A DNA stretch of 64,000 nt from Gemmatimonas sp. Lineage in GTDB: Bacteria; Gemmatimonadota; Gemmatimonadetes; Gemmatimonadales; Gemmatimonadaceae. Both the position numbers and the translations under genes were made by a program. This document shows positions 43,320 to 64,000 of the stretch, in pieces. Numbering within the stretch: position 1 is the stretch's first letter; every line of letters begins with the position of its first letter. The stretch is from the NCBI GenBank assembly GCA_011390885.1, contig JAABRO010000060.1, positions 62,001 to 126,000 of the forward strand, in the 5' to 3' direction. The notes beneath the pieces are model-generated. The model searched no databases and was not told the DNA's origin. It was given only the letters and a program-made list of their open reading frames with translations.

Positions 43320-44915
<1,596 letters not shown>

Positions 44916-44997: not shown

Positions 44998-46077
44998 GTG
45001 TACACCACCTGCCTCTTCTGCCACGCGGCGCTCGGCGCCAACGAGGTCATCGAGCATTTTCCGGTCGGTCGTCGCCTCGCGTTCGACGCCGACCAGGGGC
45101 GGCTCTGGGTGGTGTGCCCCAAGTGCGAGCGCTGGAACCTCACGCCGCTCGAGGAGCGCTGGGAGGCCATCGAGGAGGCCGAGCGTGCGTACCGCGCAAC
45201 CACGCGGCGCGTCGCCACCGACAACATCGCGCTGGCGCGGCTCTCCGAGGGGCTGGAGCTCGTGCGCATCGGGCGTCCACTGCGGCCGGAGTTTGCCGCG
45301 TGGCGCTACGGCGACCAGTTCGGGCGACGTCGGCGACGGCTGTGGACGTATTCGGCGATGGGCGTGGCGGCCGCGGCCGGCGTGATGGTGGGCGGACCGG
45401 CTGTGGGCCTCGGCGTCGGCGCGCTGTCGCAGGTCGTGAACTTCGGTCCGCTGCTGTGGCACTACTCCATGCCGACGGTGAGCGTGCGCGCGGCCAACGG
45501 CGACTGGATGCGCCTCAGCCGCGACGATCTCTACAAGGCGCGCTGGGAGCCGCGTGACGCCGGCCAGATGCTCGTGCGCTTTCGCCATCAGCGCTGGGTC
45601 GCCACCTCCGGTCTCGTCGCGAAGCTGGGCGTGCGGCAGAAGCCGCTCACAGGCAAGGAGGAGGCCACGCTCGTGGGTGAGGACGCGGTGCAGGCCATGG
45701 CGCGACTGCTCCCCGCGCTCAACCGTGGCGGCGGCGGCGCGCGCGATGTGGAGCAGGCGGTGGGACTCATCGAGGAGGCGGGCGACGTGCGGCGCGTCTT
45801 CGACCGCGCCAGCCGCTCCAAGCGGCGCTCCTCGCTCGAGGTCATGGCGTGGACCGGCGAATCGGCCAAGCCCGACGCCCTGATCACGCTCACGCGTCCC
45901 GTGCGCCTCGCGCTCGAGATGGCGCTGCACGAGGACGACGAGCGCCGCGCCATGGCCGGCGAACTGGGCGCGCTCTACGCGCGGTGGGAGGAGGCGGAGC
46001 GCGTGGCGCGCATTGCCGATCGTGAGCTGTCCGTGCTGCCGGGCGCCGCGGGCGCAGGGGCCGAGCCGTCCGCGTGA
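44998..46077 (+). CDS. Tandem zinc-ribbon membrane protein, copy 1
   Basis: First of five tandem paralogues; 359 residues, no family recognised. The N-terminus carries a four-cysteine ribbon (C5-x2-C8 and C40-x2-C43) with the shared IEHFPVGRRLAFD between the pairs. WNLTPLEERWEAIEEAE and TDNIALARL follow, up to AWRYG (about 103-107). A hydrophobic stretch (about 118-155) probably spans the membrane once or twice. The C-terminal half has ALARLLPALN-like and VEQAVGLIEEAGDVRRVF segments. The shared acidic helix LEMALHEDDERRAMAGELGALYARWEEAERVARIAD ends the family region. The GTG has AGGGA seven bases upstream, the best ribosome site of the array. It is the most divergent copy in the N-terminal block (ADQGRLWVV for GERGRLWAV). 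Confidence 0.85.
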   Translation: MYTTCLFCHAALGANEVIEHFPVGRRLAFDADQGRLWVVCPKCERWNLTPLEERWEAIEEAERAYRATTRRVATDNIALARLSEGLELVRIGRPLRPEFAAWRYGDQFGRRRRRLWTYSAMGVAAAAGVMVGGPAVGLGVGALSQVVNFGPLLWHYSMPTVSVRAANGDWMRLSRDDLYKARWEPRDAGQMLVRFRHQRWVATSGLVAKLGVRQKPLTGKEEATLVGEDAVQAMARLLPALNRGGGGARDVEQAVGLIEEAGDVRRVFDRASRSKRRSSLEVMAWTGESAKPDALITLTRPVRLALEMALHEDDERRAMAGELGALYARWEEAERVARIADRELSVLPGAAGAGAEPSA

Positions 46078-46159
46078 CGATCGTGGCGAGCACCGCGCAC
46101 GGCTGAGTCCGCTGGCGCTTCAACTTGCGAGCGCCATGCTCGCGGTGAATCGTTGCCGC

Positions 46160-47257
46160 GTGTTCTCCACCTGCCTGGTCTGCCACGGGTCACTCGGCGC
46201 CAACGACGCCATCGAGCACTTTCCGGTCGGTCGCCGTCTCGCGTTCGACGGCGAGCGCGGTCGGCTGTGGGCGGTGTGTCCGCACTGCCACCAGTGGAAC
46301 CTTGCGCCCATCGAGGAGCGCTGGGAGGCCATCGAGTCGTGCGAGCGCGCCTATCGCGGCACCCGACAGCGCGTGTCCACCGACAACATCGCGCTCGCGC
46401 GACTCAAGGACGGCACCGATCTCGTACGCATCGGGCAGCCGCTGCTGCCGGAGCTCGCCGCGTGGCGATACGGCGGGCGCTACCTCGCGCGTCAGCGGCG
46501 AGAGCTGGCAGTCGCCTTCGGCTCGCAATCCGTCTATGTGACGGCCATGTCCGCAAAGTGGATGCTGGGCGCTGCGATGCCGATTGGTGTGCTGGCCGGG
46601 ATCGGCGTGCTCACTGCAGCGATGCAATGGGGAGCGATCGCCGCGGAGGCACGCCGCCGCTGGCTGCCCCGCGGCATCGTCCATACCATGGAGCACGGTC
46701 CCCGAGCCGTCACCTACGGTGACTCCAAGGCCACGCGCGTTCGGCTCGACGCGGCGGGGCAGATGTCGATCGCACTGCGCTCGCGACCGGTCGTGCCGGC
46801 ACCGCGGCCGCTACGCGTGCTGGGGCTCCGCTACCTGTGGACCGGTGGTGCCGCCTCCGAGTCGTGGCACGGCGGCAGGGAAGCGCCGACGATGCTTGCG
46901 CCGCTGCTCGGCGCATCGCACGCCCACACGGCCTTCGGTCGTCGTCAGATCGATGAGGCCGTCAACGTGATGGTTGAGCGCGTGCAGCGCGTGGCCGAAC
47001 CGCCAGACCAGGCCGCCGTCCGCATGCTCACCGATCAGGCCACCGCGATCGGACGTCCCGGCGACTTCCCCAACGGTCGCCCGCTCGACAGCATTCCCAT
47101 GCGCGTGCGCCTCGCCGCCGAAATGGCCCTCCACGAAGACGACGAACGCCGCGCCCTCGCCGGCGAACTCGGCGCACTCTACCGCCGCTGGGAAGAGGCC
47201 GAGCGCATCGCGCGCATCGCCGACGGTGAACTCACGCGACTCCCGGATCGCGCGTAA
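46160..47257 (+). CDS. Tandem zinc-ribbon membrane protein, copy 2
   Basis: Second paralogue, 365 residues from a GTG chosen because it aligns exactly with the start of the other copies (FSTCLVCH). The frame is open further upstream, overlapping copy 1. Cysteines are at 5, 8, 40 and 43, with an extra His (CPHCHQW) next to the last. The hydrophobic middle (about 120-160: YVTAMSAKWMLGAAMPIGVLAGIGVLTAAM) has no sequence likeness to that of copy 1. The following region (about 165-320) is also distinctive. The C-terminal helix (LAAEMALHEDDERRALAGELGALYRRWEEAERIARIADGEL) is again conserved. An 82-base gap separates it from copy 1; the stop TAA is three bases before copy 3. Confidence 0.82.
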   Translation: MFSTCLVCHGSLGANDAIEHFPVGRRLAFDGERGRLWAVCPHCHQWNLAPIEERWEAIESCERAYRGTRQRVSTDNIALARLKDGTDLVRIGQPLLPELAAWRYGGRYLARQRRELAVAFGSQSVYVTAMSAKWMLGAAMPIGVLAGIGVLTAAMQWGAIAAEARRRWLPRGIVHTMEHGPRAVTYGDSKATRVRLDAAGQMSIALRSRPVVPAPRPLRVLGLRYLWTGGAASESWHGGREAPTMLAPLLGASHAHTAFGRRQIDEAVNVMVERVQRVAEPPDQAAVRMLTDQATAIGRPGDFPNGRPLDSIPMRVRLAAEMALHEDDERRALAGELGALYRRWEEAERIARIADGELTRLPDRA

Positions 47258-47260
47258 CGC

Positions 47261-48298
47261 ATGTTCTCCACTTGCCTCTTCTGCCACGCCGCACTCGGCG
47301 CGAACGATACCATCGAACACTTCCCCGTGGGCAAGCGCCTCGCCTTCGACGGCGAACGCGGTCGCCTCTGGGCGGTATGCCCACGCTGCGCACGCTGGAA
47401 TCTCGCGCCCATTCAAGAACGCTGGGAAGCACTCGAAGCCTGCGAGAAGGCGTACCGCGCGGCCACGAAGCGTGTCTCCACCGACAACATCGCGCTTGCG
47501 CGCTTGAAGGACGGCACCGACCTCGTGCGCATCGGGCAGCCGCTGCTGCCGGAGTATGCGGCGTGGCGGTATGGGGACATGGTGCGCAATCGCCGGCGTC
47601 GCTTCTTCAACGAGCAGGCCGGCACACTGTTTCTCAGCGCCGTTGGTGCAGGTATTCTCGGCACGGGGGTGGCGACGGGCGCCACCTCGGCGCTGCTCTC
47701 CCCCATCCTCACGCCGATCCTCTTGGCGTCAGGCGGCTTGGCCTGGTGGAGCCGCCGTCGTGCGCGGCGTCCCTTCGCGGCCGCGCTTCCCGGCAACGAT
47801 GTGGTCTCGCGGCGTCTTGCGGCGCAGCACCTCAGCGCTCGGCTCCGGCGGGAGACCGATGGCGCGTGGGTCATCGAGACAGACGCGAGCGCCTTGTCGT
47901 GGTGGCAACGACGCGCACCAGGAGGAGATGGCGCGTTTCGGCTCACGGGCTCGGCGGCACGGGCGGCGCTGCCACCGCTGCTTGCAGCCATGACGCCCTG
48001 GGGAGCCAACGCGGTCGAGGTGCGGGAGGGCGCCAACCTGTTCGAGCGCTCCCCCGATGTGGAGGCGCTCTTCGATGCCATCGCAAACAAGGCGTTCCTC
48101 GGCTCCGACATCTATCGCGGCGCGCTCAGTGTGGCCGATCCAGCGTCGAAGCTGGCGCTCGAAATGGCGCTGCACGATGAGGACGAACGCCGCGCCCTCG
48201 CCGGCGAACTCGGCGCGCTCTACGCCCGCTGGGAGGAGGCCGAGCGCATTGCGCGCATCGCGGACGGCGCACTTACGCGACTCGAGGGTCGCGAGTAA
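47261..48298 (+). CDS. Tandem zinc-ribbon membrane protein, copy 3
   Basis: Third paralogue, 345 residues, ATG start. The N-terminal ~105 residues are nearly identical to copies 4 and 5 (cysteines 5, 8, 40, 43; KRLAFDGERGRLWAVCPRC). The hydrophobic middle (about 120-163) has two likely membrane spans, LFLSAVGAGILGTGVATGA and LLSPILTPILLASGGLAWW, followed by a basic patch RRRARR. The later part contains AALPPLLAAMTPWGANAVEVREGANLFERSPDVEALFDAI, alignable with copy 4 throughout. The acidic tail helix ends the protein. Copies 3 and 4 are therefore the youngest pair. No good ribosome site precedes the ATG, so translation probably re-initiates after copy 2. Confidence 0.83.
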   Translation: MFSTCLFCHAALGANDTIEHFPVGKRLAFDGERGRLWAVCPRCARWNLAPIQERWEALEACEKAYRAATKRVSTDNIALARLKDGTDLVRIGQPLLPEYAAWRYGDMVRNRRRRFFNEQAGTLFLSAVGAGILGTGVATGATSALLSPILTPILLASGGLAWWSRRRARRPFAAALPGNDVVSRRLAAQHLSARLRRETDGAWVIETDASALSWWQRRAPGGDGAFRLTGSAARAALPPLLAAMTPWGANAVEVREGANLFERSPDVEALFDAIANKAFLGSDIYRGALSVADPASKLALEMALHDEDERRALAGELGALYARWEEAERIARIADGALTRLEGRE

Positions 48299-48301
48299 CG
48301 C

Positions 48302-49327
48302 ATGTTCTCCACCTGCCTCTTCTGCCACGCCTCGCTCGGCGCGAACGATACCATCGAACACTTCCCGGTGGGGAAGCGCCTCGCATTCGACGGCGAGCGT
48401 GGCCGGCTCTGGGCGGTGTGTCCACGGTGCGCACGCTGGAACCTCGCCCCCATCGAGGAACGCTGGGAGGCGCTCGAGGCATGCGAGAAGGCGTACCGCG
48501 CCGCCACGAAGCGTGTGTCCACCGACAACATCGCGCTGGCGCGACTCAAGGACGGCACCGACCTCGTGCGCATCGGGCGACCGCTGCTGCCGGAGTTTGC
48601 GGCGTGGCGATACGGCGATGCGGTGCGCGAGCGTCGGCGACGCGCGCTCGTGGATCAGTGGGGTGGCACGTTCGTCGGTGCCGTCGCGGCTGGCGCGATT
48701 GGGACTGCCATTGCGACGGGAGCGGCGCCGATGGCGGTGCTGTCGCCGCTTCTCATGGCCTCCGGCGGCCTCGCCTGGTGGCGAGGTCGCGGAACACGCC
48801 GGTCGTTCAGCGCTGTCTTGCCAGGTCGCGACGACGCCGCACGGCGACTCGCCACGCATCACTGGCGCACTCGGCTCGGCCGCGCGGACGACGGCACGTG
48901 GATGATCGAAGAGAGCAAGGGATACATGGACACGTGGCGAGGGCCGCGCGCCGATCCCCGCGCCGTGCGGCTCACCGGTGCTGCGGCGCGCGCTGCCTTG
49001 CCACCGCTGCTCGCCGCGATCATGCCGTGGGGGGGCAATGCGGTGGAGGTGCGGGAAGGCGCCGACCTGTTCGAGCGCACCCCCGATGTCGACGCCTTGT
49101 TCGACACCATCGCCAACCGAGCGTGGCTTGGCTCGGAGAGCTATCGGGGGGCGCTCGCGACGGCCAGCCCTGCGTCCACGCTCGCGCTGGAGATGGCCCT
49201 CCACGAGGACGACGAACGGCGCGCCCTCGCCGGCGAACTCGGTGCGCTCTACGCGCGCTGGGAGGAGGCGGAGCGCATCGCGCGCATCTCCGACGGCGAG
49301 CTCACGCGCGTCGCCGCGAAGGAGTAG
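48302..49327 (+). CDS. Tandem zinc-ribbon membrane protein, copy 4
   Basis: Fourth paralogue, 341 residues, closest to copy 3 over the whole length (for example NAVEVREGADLFERTPDVDALFD against the copy 3 equivalent). The zinc-ribbon cysteines, TDNIALARLKDGTDLVRIG and AWRYG are unchanged. The membrane segment (about 120-158) reads FVGAVAAGAIGTAIATGAAP and LLMASGGLAWW. Differences from copy 3 are concentrated between the membrane segment and AALPPLL (about 165-240), including a Trp-containing stretch (ESKGYMDTWRGP). It begins three bases after the copy 3 stop with the same TAACGCATG junction as copy 2/copy 3. Its 3' end carries AAGGAG just before the stop, which may serve copy 5. Confidence 0.83.
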   Translation: MFSTCLFCHASLGANDTIEHFPVGKRLAFDGERGRLWAVCPRCARWNLAPIEERWEALEACEKAYRAATKRVSTDNIALARLKDGTDLVRIGRPLLPEFAAWRYGDAVRERRRRALVDQWGGTFVGAVAAGAIGTAIATGAAPMAVLSPLLMASGGLAWWRGRGTRRSFSAVLPGRDDAARRLATHHWRTRLGRADDGTWMIEESKGYMDTWRGPRADPRAVRLTGAAARAALPPLLAAIMPWGGNAVEVREGADLFERTPDVDALFDTIANRAWLGSESYRGALATASPASTLALEMALHEDDERRALAGELGALYARWEEAERIARISDGELTRVAAKE

Positions 49328-49332
49328 CGCGC

Positions 49333-50448
49333 GTGTTCTCCACCTGCCTCGTCTGCCACGCATCGCTCGGCGCCAACGACGCCATCGAGCATTTCCCGGT
49401 GGGGAAGCGACTCGCCTTCGACGGTGAACGCGGTCGCCTCTGGGCCGTCTGCCCGCGGTGCGAACGCTGGAACCTCGCGCCCATCGAGGAACGCTGGGAA
49501 GCGTTGGAAGAGTGCGAGAAGGCGTACCGCGCCGCGACGAAACGTGTGTCCACCGACAACATCGCGCTTGCACGATTGAAGGACGGCACCGACCTCGTGC
49601 GCATCGGCCAGCCGCTGCTGCCGGAGTTCGCGGCCTGGCGGTACAGCCGCACCTTCCTGCGGCGCGCGCGCTGGGCAACGGTGCGGCGGTTCACGCCAGT
49701 CATCGCCGTCAACGCCGTGCTCACCGCTGCGGTGAGCGCGACCTTGGGCCCCGGTGCCTTCGGCCTCATGTTGCTGCCCGCGGCCAATGCCGGGTCGCTG
49801 TTCGCGTTCGCCGGCTTCATGCGCTGGCGCATCCGCCAACCCACCGCGCTGGTCTTCACCCACGACGGCGCGCTGCACGGAGTCACCCCCCGCGTCGTCG
49901 GCGCCACGCGCATCACCTACGATGCCGATCAGGGGCTCGGTCTTCGATTGCAGACACAGATCGTGCGCCCCGCGCATGCCCTCGCGCGACGCGTCGGCAT
50001 TCGCGTGCAGGCCGACGCGCAGCACATGCCCGGCGAGGTGCTGCTGACCGGTGAGCACGCACACGCCCTGCTGCCGCGGCTGCTGCCGGCGCTCAATCAG
50101 TTCGACGCATCGGGGCTGCTCATCGAGGAAGCCGTCGCGCGTGTCGAGCGACAGCGCGCCGCCCCCAGCGTCGACGATCCCGTCGTCGCCCTGCTCGCCC
50201 CGCGCATCGCCGGTTACCGGCGGTCGCTCTTCGGCACCGGCGAACAGATCGGGCTGCTCTCTCCCGTGAGCCGCCTCGCTGCCGAAATGGCCCTGCACGA
50301 GGACGACGAGCGCCGTGCCCTCGCTGGCGAACTCGGTGCGCTGTATGCTCGGTGGGAGGAGGCAGAACGAACCGCCGCCATCGCCGACCGACTGCTGCTG
50401 CCGCCAGCCGCAGCCGTTGAAGCCCCACCCCGGACCGGCTACGTTTAA
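49333..50448 (+). CDS. Tandem zinc-ribbon membrane protein, copy 5
   Basis: Last paralogue, 371 residues from a GTG aligned with the other starts; AAGGAG lies 9 bases upstream, within copy 4. The N-terminal block equals that of copies 3 and 4, but after AWRY the sequence is different. There is a longer hydrophobic region (about 117-165: FTPVIAVNAVLTAAVSATLGPGAFG and LLPAANAGSLFAFAGF). A beta-rich segment follows (about 170-235: ALVFTHDGALHGVTPRVVG), then LLPRLLPALNQFDASGLLIEEAVARVE. The tail helix AEMALHEDDERRALAGELGALYARWEEAERTAAIAD is conserved. A hairpin overlaps its stop codon. The combination of a young N-terminus with an old, different body suggests exchange of the N-terminal block between copies. 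Confidence 0.83.
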   Translation: MFSTCLVCHASLGANDAIEHFPVGKRLAFDGERGRLWAVCPRCERWNLAPIEERWEALEECEKAYRAATKRVSTDNIALARLKDGTDLVRIGQPLLPEFAAWRYSRTFLRRARWATVRRFTPVIAVNAVLTAAVSATLGPGAFGLMLLPAANAGSLFAFAGFMRWRIRQPTALVFTHDGALHGVTPRVVGATRITYDADQGLGLRLQTQIVRPAHALARRVGIRVQADAQHMPGEVLLTGEHAHALLPRLLPALNQFDASGLLIEEAVARVERQRAAPSVDDPVVALLAPRIAGYRRSLFGTGEQIGLLSPVSRLAAEMALHEDDERRALAGELGALYARWEEAERTAAIADRLLLPPAAAVEAPPRTGYV

Positions 50449-50481: not shown

Positions 50482-50808
50482 ATGCCAACTTACGAGTTTC
50501 GTAGCCCCGACGGCACGATTCACGAACGCGTCTTCAAGATGTCCGAGGTTCCCCCGTCCATCACGCTCGACGATGGCACGGTGGCCGAGCGCATGATTTC
50601 CGCCGGCGTCGGCCTGCTGTTCAAGGGCGAGGGGTTCTACATCACCGACTACGGCAAGGACGGCAAGAAGGACCAGCGCGCCGCCGCGAAGCCGGCCGCC
50701 GCGGCGTCCGTCAGCGACGCGCCCAAGGCCGACGCCCCGAAGGCCGACGCCCCCGCGCCCAAGGCCGAGGCCAAGCCGGCCGCGCCGTCCACGCCCAAGG
50801 CCGACTGA
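50482..50808 (+). CDS. FmdB-like protein without zinc-ribbon cysteines
   Basis: 108-residue small protein. The N-terminus MPTYEFRSPDG, the segment MISAGVGLLFKGEGFYITDYGKDGKK and the overall spacing follow the FmdB/CxxC regulatory family. In that family two CxxC pairs normally follow MPTYEYRC and precede the I-S-G-G-x-G turn. Here all four cysteine positions are replaced and the protein contains no Cys at all, so it cannot form the usual zinc ribbon. The C-terminal ~45 residues are a low-complexity Ala/Lys/Pro/Asp tail with repeated PKADA units. The reading frame is intact and the conserved parts are not decayed, so a functional cysteine-free derivative is more likely than a pseudogene. Function unknown. 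Confidence 0.8.
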   Translation: MPTYEFRSPDGTIHERVFKMSEVPPSITLDDGTVAERMISAGVGLLFKGEGFYITDYGKDGKKDQRAAAKPAAAASVSDAPKADAPKADAPAPKAEAKPAAPSTPKAD

Positions 50809-60770: not shown

Positions 60771-61088
60771 ATGGAGATCATCCTGCACGCGCATCACGCC
60801 GAAGTCACGGAGTCGCTCCGCACCAAGGCGGAGCGCGCCATCGAACGCCTGGCCACACGCGTCCGACGCGTCGTGACCGCGATCGTGCGGTTCGAGGGCG
60901 ATGGGCCCAGCAAGCGAGTCGAGATCGTGCTGCAGGCGCCGCGGCGCCCCGACATCGTCGCCCACGCCTTCGATCGGCAGTACGAGCCCGCCCTGTCGCT
61001 CGCCGTGCAACGGCTCGAGGCGCAGGTGGCCCGCGCGCGTCGCTCACGTCGTCCCCGCTCCCGCCCGCCCGAGACACCACCCTGGTGA
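60771..61088 (+). CDS. hpf: Ribosome hibernation promoting factor (short form)
   Basis: Small ribosome-binding protein that protects or dimerises 70S ribosomes in slow growth. 105 residues: the short HPF form, lacking the C-terminal dimerisation domain of long HPF. The beta-alpha core is visible as EIILHAHHAEVTESLRTKAERAIERLATRVRRV, then VRFEGDGPSKRVEIVLQAP and ALSLAVQRLEAQVARA. The tail is very basic (RRSRRPRSRP). It is placed directly upstream of hprK and PTS genes, the same order seen around rpoN-hpf-ptsN in other phyla. The ATG abuts the glycosyltransferase stop; the hprK GTG overlaps its end. Confidence 0.88.
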   Translation: MEIILHAHHAEVTESLRTKAERAIERLATRVRRVVTAIVRFEGDGPSKRVEIVLQAPRRPDIVAHAFDRQYEPALSLAVQRLEAQVARARRSRRPRSRPPETPPW

Positions 61089-62068
61089 CTGCCCGCCTGA
61101 CCGTCAGCAAGCTGCTCGACACCATGAAGGACGTCCTCCAGCTCGAGGAGCTGGGGGACCCCGTCGGGCACGACCGCGAGATCACGAGTCCCGAGGCATC
61201 CAGCCCGGGACTCGCGCTCTCCGGGTACCTCAATCGCTTTCCCTACCAGCGCATCCAGGTGCTCGGTGAAACCGAGATCACCTACCTGCAGTCCCTCGAT
61301 CCCGCCACGCGCGCGGCGAACCTCACGGCGTTCTTCGACTTCCCCATGCCGTGCGCCTTCGTCACGAAGGGGCTCGAGCCGCCGGAGCCGTTCGTGGAGG
61401 TGGCCGATCGCGCCGGCGTGGCCGTGCTGCGCTCGCAGCTGAAGACGGCCGAGTTCTATCGGCTCCTGAAGCCGTATCTCGCCGACCATTTCGCGCCCAC
61501 CACCACCATGCACGGCTCGCTCGCCGACGTGTATGGCGTGGGGCTCTTCTTCACCGGCAAGAGCGGCATCGGCAAGTCGGAGTGCGTGCTCGACCTCGTC
61601 GAGCGGGGCCACCGGCTCGTGGCCGACGACCTGGTCTTCGTGTCGCGGCGCGGCAGCGACGTGCTCATCGGCCGCGGCCACGAGCAGCAGCGCCACTTCA
61701 TGGAGATCCGCGGCGTCGGCCTCATCGACGTGCCCGCCATCTTCGGCGTGAAGGCCGTGCGCCAGCAGAAGCGACTCGAGGTGGTCGTGGTGCTCGAGCA
61801 GTGGGACGGGGAGGCGCACATCGACCGCACTGGCCTCGACGTGCAGAAGACCACCGTGCTCGGCGTGGAGCTGCCGCGCATCACGGTGCACCTCAATCCG
61901 GGAAAGAACATCACGGTGATCGCCGAGGTCATCGCCATGAATCACCTGCTGCGCTACCATCGCGGCTACGATTCGGCCACGGCGTTCAACGAGATGCTCA
62001 TCAGCAACATGAGTGCGAAGCGGCGCGGCGGCGACGCCCACCGCTACCTGCTGGAGGACGACGAGTGA
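61085..62068 (+). CDS. hprK: HPr kinase/phosphorylase
   Basis: ATP- or pyrophosphate-dependent kinase and phosphorylase acting on a serine of HPr. 327 residues, family length. The N-terminal domain is followed by the catalytic region with MHGSLADVYG (His143), the P-loop GKSGIGKSE (158-166) and LVADDLVFV. The HprK signature MEIRGVGLIDVPAIFGVKAVR and the C-terminal PGKNITVIAEVIAMNHLLRY are also present. The GTG overlaps the hpf stop, and its stop overlaps the PTS EIIA start. In the phyla that keep it outside Firmicutes, HprK usually belongs to a regulatory PTS, which fits this locus. Confidence 0.94.
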   Translation: MTARLTVSKLLDTMKDVLQLEELGDPVGHDREITSPEASSPGLALSGYLNRFPYQRIQVLGETEITYLQSLDPATRAANLTAFFDFPMPCAFVTKGLEPPEPFVEVADRAGVAVLRSQLKTAEFYRLLKPYLADHFAPTTTMHGSLADVYGVGLFFTGKSGIGKSECVLDLVERGHRLVADDLVFVSRRGSDVLIGRGHEQQRHFMEIRGVGLIDVPAIFGVKAVRQQKRLEVVVVLEQWDGEAHIDRTGLDVQKTTVLGVELPRITVHLNPGKNITVIAEVIAMNHLLRYHRGYDSATAFNEMLISNMSAKRRGGDAHRYLLEDDE

Positions 62069-62484
62069 GTGACGACGCGGTCGTCGTGGCCGTGGTGGCG
62101 GGACACGGTCGCTTTGCGGAGGGCATGGTCTCGGCCGTCGAGCAGATCACCGGGCGCGGTGCGGCGTTCGCCACGCTGTCCAACGCCGGCCTGTCCCCCG
62201 CCGACCTCGAGCGCGCGCTGCTCGACCGGCTCGACGCCACCGGAGCGCGGGTCATCTTCACCGACCTGCCCGCCGGCAGCTGCACCATGGCGGCGCGGCG
62301 CGTACAGCGGGCGCGTCCCGACGTGGTGCTCGTGACCGGCGCGAACGTGGCCGTGCTCATGGAGTTCCTGTTCGCGGCCATCAGCCCGCTCGACACGCCG
62401 GTGGCCGGCCTCGTGGATGTGGCCGAGCTCGCGCGTACCGCCGCCGAGAAGGCGCGCGCCACACTCGTGGCGTCGGGGGGCTGA
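62065..62484 (+). CDS. PTS mannose-family EIIA component
   Basis: Soluble phosphocarrier of a mannose/fructose/sorbose-type phosphotransferase system, 139 residues. The phosphorylated histidine is H14 in VVAGHGRFAEGM, as in ManX EIIA. Later blocks FTDLPAGSCTMAARRV and GANVAVLMEFLFA match the family. The GTG overlaps the hprK stop (GTGA). EIIA here is a separate protein, whereas enterobacterial ManX fuses A and B; EIIB is the next gene. Its partner HPr and enzyme I are presumably encoded beyond the window end. Confidence 0.9.
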   Translation: MSDDAVVVAVVAGHGRFAEGMVSAVEQITGRGAAFATLSNAGLSPADLERALLDRLDATGARVIFTDLPAGSCTMAARRVQRARPDVVLVTGANVAVLMEFLFAAISPLDTPVAGLVDVAELARTAAEKARATLVASGG

Positions 62485-62485
62485 C

Positions 62486-62977
62486 GTGGGGATCCAGCTG
62501 TATCGGGTGGACGACCGCCTCATCCACGGCCAGGTCGTGGTAGGATGGGGACAGCCGCTCGGCCTGCGCTTCCTCGTGCTCGTCGACGACGACGTGGCCG
62601 CCAGCGACTGGGAGCAGGAGCTCTACCGCATGGGCGTGCCTCCCGACGTGTCGGTGCACTTCCACACCGTCGAGGAGATGGGCCCGGGGCTCGCGCGCTA
62701 TCAGCAGGAGGCGAGCCCCGGGCTGCTGCTCGTGGGCAGCGTCGACACCATGCGACGCCTCGTGGAGGTGTCGCCGTCCATCACGGCGGTGAATCTCGGC
62801 GGGGTGCACCACGCCGAGGGGCGCGTGCAGCGCCTGCGCTACGTGTTCCTCACGCCCGCGGAGGAAGACATGCTGCGCGCCCTCGAGGCACGCGGTGTGA
62901 CCATCACGGCGCAGGACGTGCCCTCCGCGCGCCCCGTGCCGCTGGCCGACGTGCTCGCCGGCCGCGCCGACGCCTGA
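62486..62977 (+). CDS. PTS mannose/sorbose-family EIIB component
   Basis: Soluble EIIB that takes the phosphate from EIIA and passes it to sugar. 163 residues, GTG start one base after the EIIA stop. The active-site loop is VDDRLIHGQVVVGWGQ with H14 as the phosphoacceptor. DDDVAASDWEQELYRMGVPP, LLLVGSVDTMRRLVE and AVNLGGVHHAEGR (IGG-type motif) complete the family pattern. The open frame extends upstream over EIIA but the start used here gives the canonical length. Confidence 0.92.
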   Translation: MGIQLYRVDDRLIHGQVVVGWGQPLGLRFLVLVDDDVAASDWEQELYRMGVPPDVSVHFHTVEEMGPGLARYQQEASPGLLLVGSVDTMRRLVEVSPSITAVNLGGVHHAEGRVQRLRYVFLTPAEEDMLRALEARGVTITAQDVPSARPVPLADVLAGRADA

Positions 62978-62982
62978 CGCGC

Positions 62983-63687
62983 GTGCTGCCACTCACGCTC
63001 GACCTGCTGCCGCTCGTGCTGCTCGGAGCCATTCTCGGCCTCGACGTGGTGAGCTTTCCGCAGGCCATGATCTCGCGGCCGATCGTCGCGGCCACGCTGG
63101 CCGGCGCCTTCGCCGGCTCGCCCGCGGCGGGGCTGGTGGTCGGGGTGGCCCTCGAGTGCCTCGCCCTGGAAACGCTCCCGTTCGGCGCCTCGCGCTACCC
63201 CGAGTGGGGGAGCGCGTCGGTGGTGGGCGGACTCGTGGGCACGCGCGCGGCCGATGGGGCGCTGCTCCCCGATCCGGGCGCGTGGGTGGTCGGCGTCATG
63301 GCGGCGATCGCCACGGCGTGGGTGGGCGGCTGGACCATGGTGCAGCACCGGAAGCTCATTGCGCGCTGGGCCCGGCCGCGGCTCGACCAGCTGGCCGCCG
63401 GCTCCATGCGCACGGTCGTGTCGCTGCAGGTGTACGGGCTCACCGCCGACCTCGTGCGCGGCGGGGCGCTCACGCTGCTCGCGCTGCTCGTGGCGTGGCC
63501 GATCTCGGGGTGGGCCATCGACGCCTGGCGGCTCGGTGCCGTGGAGACGCGCGGTGCGCTGATCATCGGCGCCGCCGCCGTGGCGGCATCGGCCGTGTGG
63601 AAGGTGCTGCACGGGTATTCGGTCACGCGGCGCCTCTTCGTGGCCGGTCTCGCGGTGGGCACGCTCCTGGTCGGTTTCCGTGGCTGA
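62983..63687 (+). CDS. PTS mannose-family EIIC component
   Basis: Membrane subunit of the mannose-type system, 234 residues, a little shorter than ManY (~265). Predicted helices include TLDLLPLVLLGAILGLDVV, PIVAATLAGAFAGSPAAGLVVGVALECLAL (with the conserved Glu), ALLPDPGAWVVGVMAAIATAWV and two at the C-terminus. It starts with GTG five bases after EIIB and overlaps EIID by eight bases. Sugar specificity cannot be inferred. The coding frame continues upstream over EIIB, so the start is set by context. Confidence 0.85.
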   Translation: MLPLTLDLLPLVLLGAILGLDVVSFPQAMISRPIVAATLAGAFAGSPAAGLVVGVALECLALETLPFGASRYPEWGSASVVGGLVGTRAADGALLPDPGAWVVGVMAAIATAWVGGWTMVQHRKLIARWARPRLDQLAAGSMRTVVSLQVYGLTADLVRGGALTLLALLVAWPISGWAIDAWRLGAVETRGALIIGAAAVAASAVWKVLHGYSVTRRLFVAGLAVGTLLVGFRG

Positions 63688-64000
63688 GACCACCGTGCCG
63701 TCGCCCGCGGTGCCGGCGGGTGCGCCCGGGGCGTCGACCGCGCTGCCCACCGGCATGCGCGCCGCACCGCTGCCGGCGCGCACGCGCGCGGCCATGCTGC
63801 TGCGCTGCCTCGCCATTCAGGGGGCGTGGAACTACGAGATCCTCAACGGCAACGGCATCGGCTTCTGCGTCGAACCGGCGCTCCGGCACCTGCCCGGCGG
63901 GCAGGACGGGGACGCCTACCGCGCGGCGCTCGCCCGGCAGTGCGCGTACTTCAACGCGCACCCGTATCTCGCGTCGCTGGCGGTGGGCGCGCTCGCGCGC
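63680..64000 (+). CDS. PTS mannose-family EIID component, N-terminal part (runs off the window)
   Basis: Partial gene, 107 codons to the window end. A Pro/Ala-rich leader of about 35 residues precedes the family start. There RCLAIQGAWNYEILNGNGIGFCVEPALRHL corresponds to the EIID pattern L-Q-x-S/A-W-N-x-E, and RQCAYFNAHPYLASLAVGAL matches F-F-N-T-H-P-x-x-A-S. EIID is the second membrane-associated subunit needed for mannose-type transport. The GTG lies eight bases inside EIIC. The rest of the gene, and probably HPr and enzyme I, lie downstream. Confidence 0.88.
   Translation, partial: MAETTVPSPAVPAGAPGASTALPTGMRAAPLPARTRAAMLLRCLAIQGAWNYEILNGNGIGFCVEPALRHLPGGQDGDAYRAALARQCAYFNAHPYLASLAVGALAR

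Follow-up and report, generated by a model that had tools for sequence, protein, structure and literature searches.

A tandem array of five membrane zinc-ribbon-like proteins with common ends and diverging middles in Gemmatimonas sp.

Five intact, consecutive open reading frames on the + strand (44998-50448), encoding proteins of 359, 365, 345, 341, and 371 amino acid residues, form a tandem array in the analyzed window, a stretch of 64,000 nucleotides from a Gemmatimonas sp. genome. The encoded proteins belong to an unnamed membrane zinc-ribbon family without a counterpart among curated families or solved structures; they look as if a housekeeping protein had undergone successive duplications, with diversification of its central portion. 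Codon-level purifying selection, together with intact homologues in hundreds of genomes, indicates that the array is beyond chance. Our preferred reading, with a probability of roughly 35%, takes them for zinc-ribbon adaptors anchored in the membrane, sharing their ends but each with a middle of its own, and likely derived from a housekeeping role; an expansion of purely redundant housekeeping copies is only slightly less likely.

Organization of the array and its genes

The array and its immediate neighbors comprise the following features, all on the + strand:

43320..44915, +, methylmalonyl-CoA mutase large subunit, upstream of the array (PF01642, E 6e-214)
44998..46077, +, copy g1, 359 aa, GTG start; orthologue of L043:3303-4361, both located directly after the mutase gene
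44998..45309, +, N-block of g1, residues 1-104, putative zinc ribbon (C5/C8/C40/C43) to AWRY, defined by invariant alignment columns and the model; such a block opens every copy
45310..45471, +, predicted membrane hairpin region of g1, approximately residues 105-158, from model helices 101-132 and 140-157, the uncharged run, and a charge count; Arg-rich before the hairpin
46160..47257, +, copy g2, 365 aa from GTG; start uncertain, an alternative ATG at 46136 giving 373 aa
47261..48298, +, copy g3, 345 aa; nearest relative g4
48302..49327, +, copy g4, 341 aa
49333..50448, +, copy g5, 371 aa, GTG start; orthologue of L044:264-1355 and L048:39-1076
49828..50226, +, beta domain forming the variable middle of g5; a separate model of it (pLDDT 83.6) has the strand order of g1; homologue of the second ribbon in the single-copy form described below
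50482..50808, +, FmdB-like small protein, downstream of the array, followed by argS, a pfkB kinase, and purM

Copies g2 to g5 are separated by gaps of only 3-5 nt, and no transposase was seen in the gene calls surrounding the array, which bears out the original prediction of a tandem expansion without mobile elements. The downstream neighbor resembles the FmdB-family zinc ribbon (TIGR02605), a small protein whose model is not matched by the array proteins. The FmdB-like protein (50482-50808) contains zero cysteines (MPTYEFRSPDGT...FKGEGFYITDYGKD), yet its homologue at locus L042 of the same genus still matches TIGR02605 weakly (E 2e-6, under the cut-off), so that its zinc site appears to have been lost here. 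At the end of the window (62065-64000), PTS-component-like genes, judged by eye, follow a putative HPr kinase (61085-62068).

Predicted architecture and comparison with known families

The layout announced in the original prediction was confirmed by alignment, with C5, C8, C40, and C43, the AWRY motif (101-104), a hydrophobic middle segment, and an acidic tail helix present in 5/5 intact copies; the tail strings of the other copies differ by a few residues from the one quoted there. AWRY is followed in all copies by a mainly uncharged run of about 29-49 residues. Pairwise identity among the five proteins is 72-96% in the N-block (104 aa) and approximately 76-85% in the C-block, and falls to about 20-27% in the middles, apart from g3 vs g4 (61%). 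The family architecture (N-terminal Cys set, WRY near residue 104, hairpin, and tail helix) is kept in 108 homologues in invariant or near-invariant columns, C43 being missing in one of them, and the invariant cysteines suggest that the N-terminal ribbon binds zinc.

Structure prediction of the monomer, one of the checks proposed originally, yielded for g1 an AlphaFold2 model (built with 108 sequences, mean pLDDT 85.8) in which the ribbon is followed by the hairpin, the small beta domain, and the tail of helices. Specifically, the ribbon (residues 1-50) is followed by a helix (54-67), strands (71-91), the two hairpin helices (101-132 and 140-157), the beta domain (159-226), a helix (227-241), and further helices up to residue 345. 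The g5 middle, 22% identical to that of g1, showed the same order of strands and helix when modelled on its own. Median charge across the 108 homologues is +4 before and +2 after the uncharged stretch, and the flank is net positive in 95% of them ahead of the hairpin and in 79% behind it; by the positive-inside rule, these charges on either side predict that both ends of the array proteins are cytoplasmic.

No significant match to the family was found in Pfam, NCBIfam, PADLOC, or PHROGs, nor in a PDB sequence search with the full-length profile, which supports the claim of an unrecognised zinc-ribbon membrane family. None of the array proteins scored above the curated cut-offs of zinc-ribbon families in Pfam and NCBIfam. 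Some of these, namely Zn_Ribbon_YjdM, DZR, and Zn_ribbon_CSL, share the CxxC...CxxC knuckles, but they are short ribbon domains devoid of the hairpin and tail of the array family. Foldseek searches (the full model against PDB and BFVD, the middle domain against PDB) and VIA-align on both models gave no confident fold match. Structural matches were middling only (OB/SSB, EF-P SH3-like, PH-like, and generic helices), and for the middle domain compared with PH-, OB-, and SH3-like beta domains the best Z was about 4, with no Foldseek E value < 0.001. A match of the middle-domain profile to 7bqr ('Mussoc'), which we take to be a designed protein, was set aside as short and partial (E 2e-4, 47 residues). 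No paper on the family was found in the open-access literature.

Envelope stress, one of the roles initially envisaged, found a sole lead in PspM (NF047839), whose weak match extends across the membrane segment of one array copy (E 0.11); at 12.4 bits vs a cut-off of 80 it is non-significant, and the zinc ribbon lies outside it. The membrane hairpin, the fast-evolving middle domain, and the multiplicity of copies would fit proteins whose middles sense different ligands or stresses and signal via the zinc-ribbon head. Such a sensor is nevertheless unlikely, given that both sides are predicted to be cytoplasmic, with no periplasmic domain, that no regulator is conserved as a neighbor, and that the PspM match is so poor.

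Distribution and the single-copy form between thiO and lipA

The survey of copy number and neighbors revealed at least one family copy in 212/298 sampled Gemmatimonadota genomes, with 1 to at least 7 copies each. A scan of one genome per species (84,980 species) placed the best 79 loci in Gemmatimonadota, except for one Chloroflexota-labelled contig and one uncultured record. The Chloroflexota-labelled contig (L062) carries a typical family member and was rejected as probably mis-binned Gemmatimonadota, given that 60 other Chloroflexota genomes gave 0 family matches. The source genome harbors seven copies, the array and a pair on another contig (C22, L011 7927-10169), the latter probably next to iscS and mnmA, since the orthologous pairs in L091 and L053 adjoin iscS and/or mnmA. 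The family members of L046 and L175 are located between grpE-dnaJ and mnmA-iscS. The array slot holds five copies here, two in L042, five in L043 (split), at least two in L044, and two in L071. No partner gene is common to the whole phylum, and no neighbor cluster occurs in more than nine of approximately 80 loci.

These data also bear on defence, likewise raised in the original prediction. Ends that stay constant around a variable and recombining middle, and a copy number that differs among relatives, might be expected of a system for anti-phage defence or interbacterial recognition whose recognition domains have diversified. We regard this as very improbable: PADLOC matched 0/43 members at E 0.01, no family homologue was found in plasmids, phages, or viral contigs, the array is surrounded by housekeeping genes, and one copy resides in a metabolic operon of sister families.

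This operon copy is a divergent homologue, nearly always the sole copy, found in two sister families of the same order (f2/f3; L121-L130 and L133-L158) and recognized by the full-length profile with E values of 1e-60 to 1e-69. It is flanked by thiO (glycine oxidase) and lipA (lipoyl synthase), both identified by passing NCBIfam cut-offs, with PDH E1, E2, and lpd genes downstream of lipA wherever the stretch read was long enough. The lipA gene adjoins it in 26/26 loci and thiO in 24/26, the two remaining loci being near contig ends or broken. A profile of the single-copy form separates it clearly, giving E 1e-161 or better for its own members (except one split gene) vs 1e-58 or worse for the rest. 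The two types have in common the N-terminal ribbon, the WRY motif, the hairpin, and the helical tail, whereas the single-copy form differs by its one copy, its fixed operon, a tail helix without a 7-residue segment, and a second CxxC...CxxC in the middle domain.

This second ribbon, which matches Zn_Ribbon_YjdM, DZR, and Zn_ribbon_CSL only under every curated cut-off (E 0.004-0.05), is absent from 5/5 array copies, and just 1/108 array-type (type-1) members has even two Cys in the middle. Profile-profile comparison (hhalign) related the middle domains of the two types with a probability of 97.1, and the array middle has turns where the single-copy form carries its cysteine pairs; the variable middle of the array is thus homologous to a metal-ribbon module.

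The occurrence of a single copy inside the housekeeping ThiO-LipA-PDH operon of sister families means that the family is not confined to a specialized array. It shifts the picture towards a housekeeping-linked family that has diversified in some lineages. The finding named beforehand as contrary to an undescribed system, a single housekeeping copy elsewhere, was thus obtained in part: the copy exists in the operon, but the operon also occurs without the gene. In G008 and G038 the lipA-PDH operon is present without a family gene, which shows that the gene is not required for the operon; on the same ground, a candidate role as a factor on which PDH or lipoylation depends was rejected. In the source genome, lipA (contig C9) has no family copy alongside, and the array is not located between thiO and lipA. 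At L172 of G038, a member of a sister family, lipA-PDH-lpd-lipB is intact, with neither thiO nor a zinc-ribbon gene before lipA.

Evolution of the copies and proposed function

In the phylogenetic tree, rooted by hand, a single clade (15 rows, SH-aLRT 98) unites the array-type copies of the genus; in it, g1 pairs with the same-place copy in L043, g5 with the copies in L044 and L048, and g3 with g4 as sisters; L043 has undergone a recent expansion of its own. Between orthologous array copies, dN/dS is 0.06-0.09 in the N-block vs 0.44-0.55 in the middle, the middle of the C22 pair having 0.25-0.31. N-block amino acid identity is 94% both for the paralogues g4-g5 and for the orthologues g5-L044, while the middles are 28% and 53% identical, respectively; N-block dS is lower between orthologues too. 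The array combines constant ends with a middle that diversifies, and with ends conserved and middles down to ~25% identity, diversity, one of the two selective causes advanced at the outset, fits better than dosage.

Groupings drawn from the N-block and from the middle are in conflict. The clade g3+g4+g5+L044, recovered in the N-block tree, is rejected by the middle (p-AU 0.0002), and the clade of five members in the middle tree is in turn rejected by the N-block (p-AU 0.021), which on its own does not reject g5+L044+L048 (p 0.17); these tests involve a 312-nt N-block, divergent middles, synonymous sites near saturation, and clades picked after the trees were seen. Within these limits, we read the conflict as recombination or conversion between copies.

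On the preferred adaptor reading, repeated tandem duplication at one syntenic slot would have produced the array, and recombination between copies would have homogenized the N-terminal block even as the middle domains drifted apart. Each protein would then act as a cytoplasmic adaptor anchored in the membrane: its head and tail, constant among copies, may dock on a partner or on one another, as homo- or hetero-oligomers, and its individual middle domain may bind a copy-specific client. The presence of a single-copy form in the ThiO-LipA-PDH operon points to housekeeping as the basic role of the family, possibly by holding a metabolic or cofactor-handling assembly at the membrane; the array would be a diversified version of this form. 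Counterpoints are that no solved structure or named family supports the adaptor reading, that no partner gene is phylum-wide, and that the operon persists in relatives lacking the gene. It is rather doubtful that the proteins are phylum-specific membrane adaptors whose client-recognition domain was diversified by tandem duplication and recombination while the docking ends remained common.

The same genomic contexts make it possible, if tentative, that the family performs one conserved task, such as the handling of metals, sulfur, or cofactors in the vicinity of PDH, IscS/MnmA, or the B12-dependent mutase, with redundant extra copies and relaxed middles: a single copy lies within the ThiO-LipA-PDH operon, a pair adjoins iscS and mnmA in several Gemmatimonadaceae, and methylmalonyl-CoA mutase adjoins the array. 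Such redundancy is at odds with the intactness of every copy, with middles still under purifying selection (dN/dS 0.25-0.55), with orthologues of individual copies that persist across species, and with neighbors that vary between loci.

A conserved, apparently phylum-restricted family, present in ~70% of sampled Gemmatimonadota, is thus missing from every family library searched. If the adaptor-diversification reading is true, the array would amount to several interchangeable membrane platforms, for which we know of no described counterpart in bacteria. The single-copy relative in a pyruvate-dehydrogenase/cofactor operon provides a concrete entry point for testing the function of the family.
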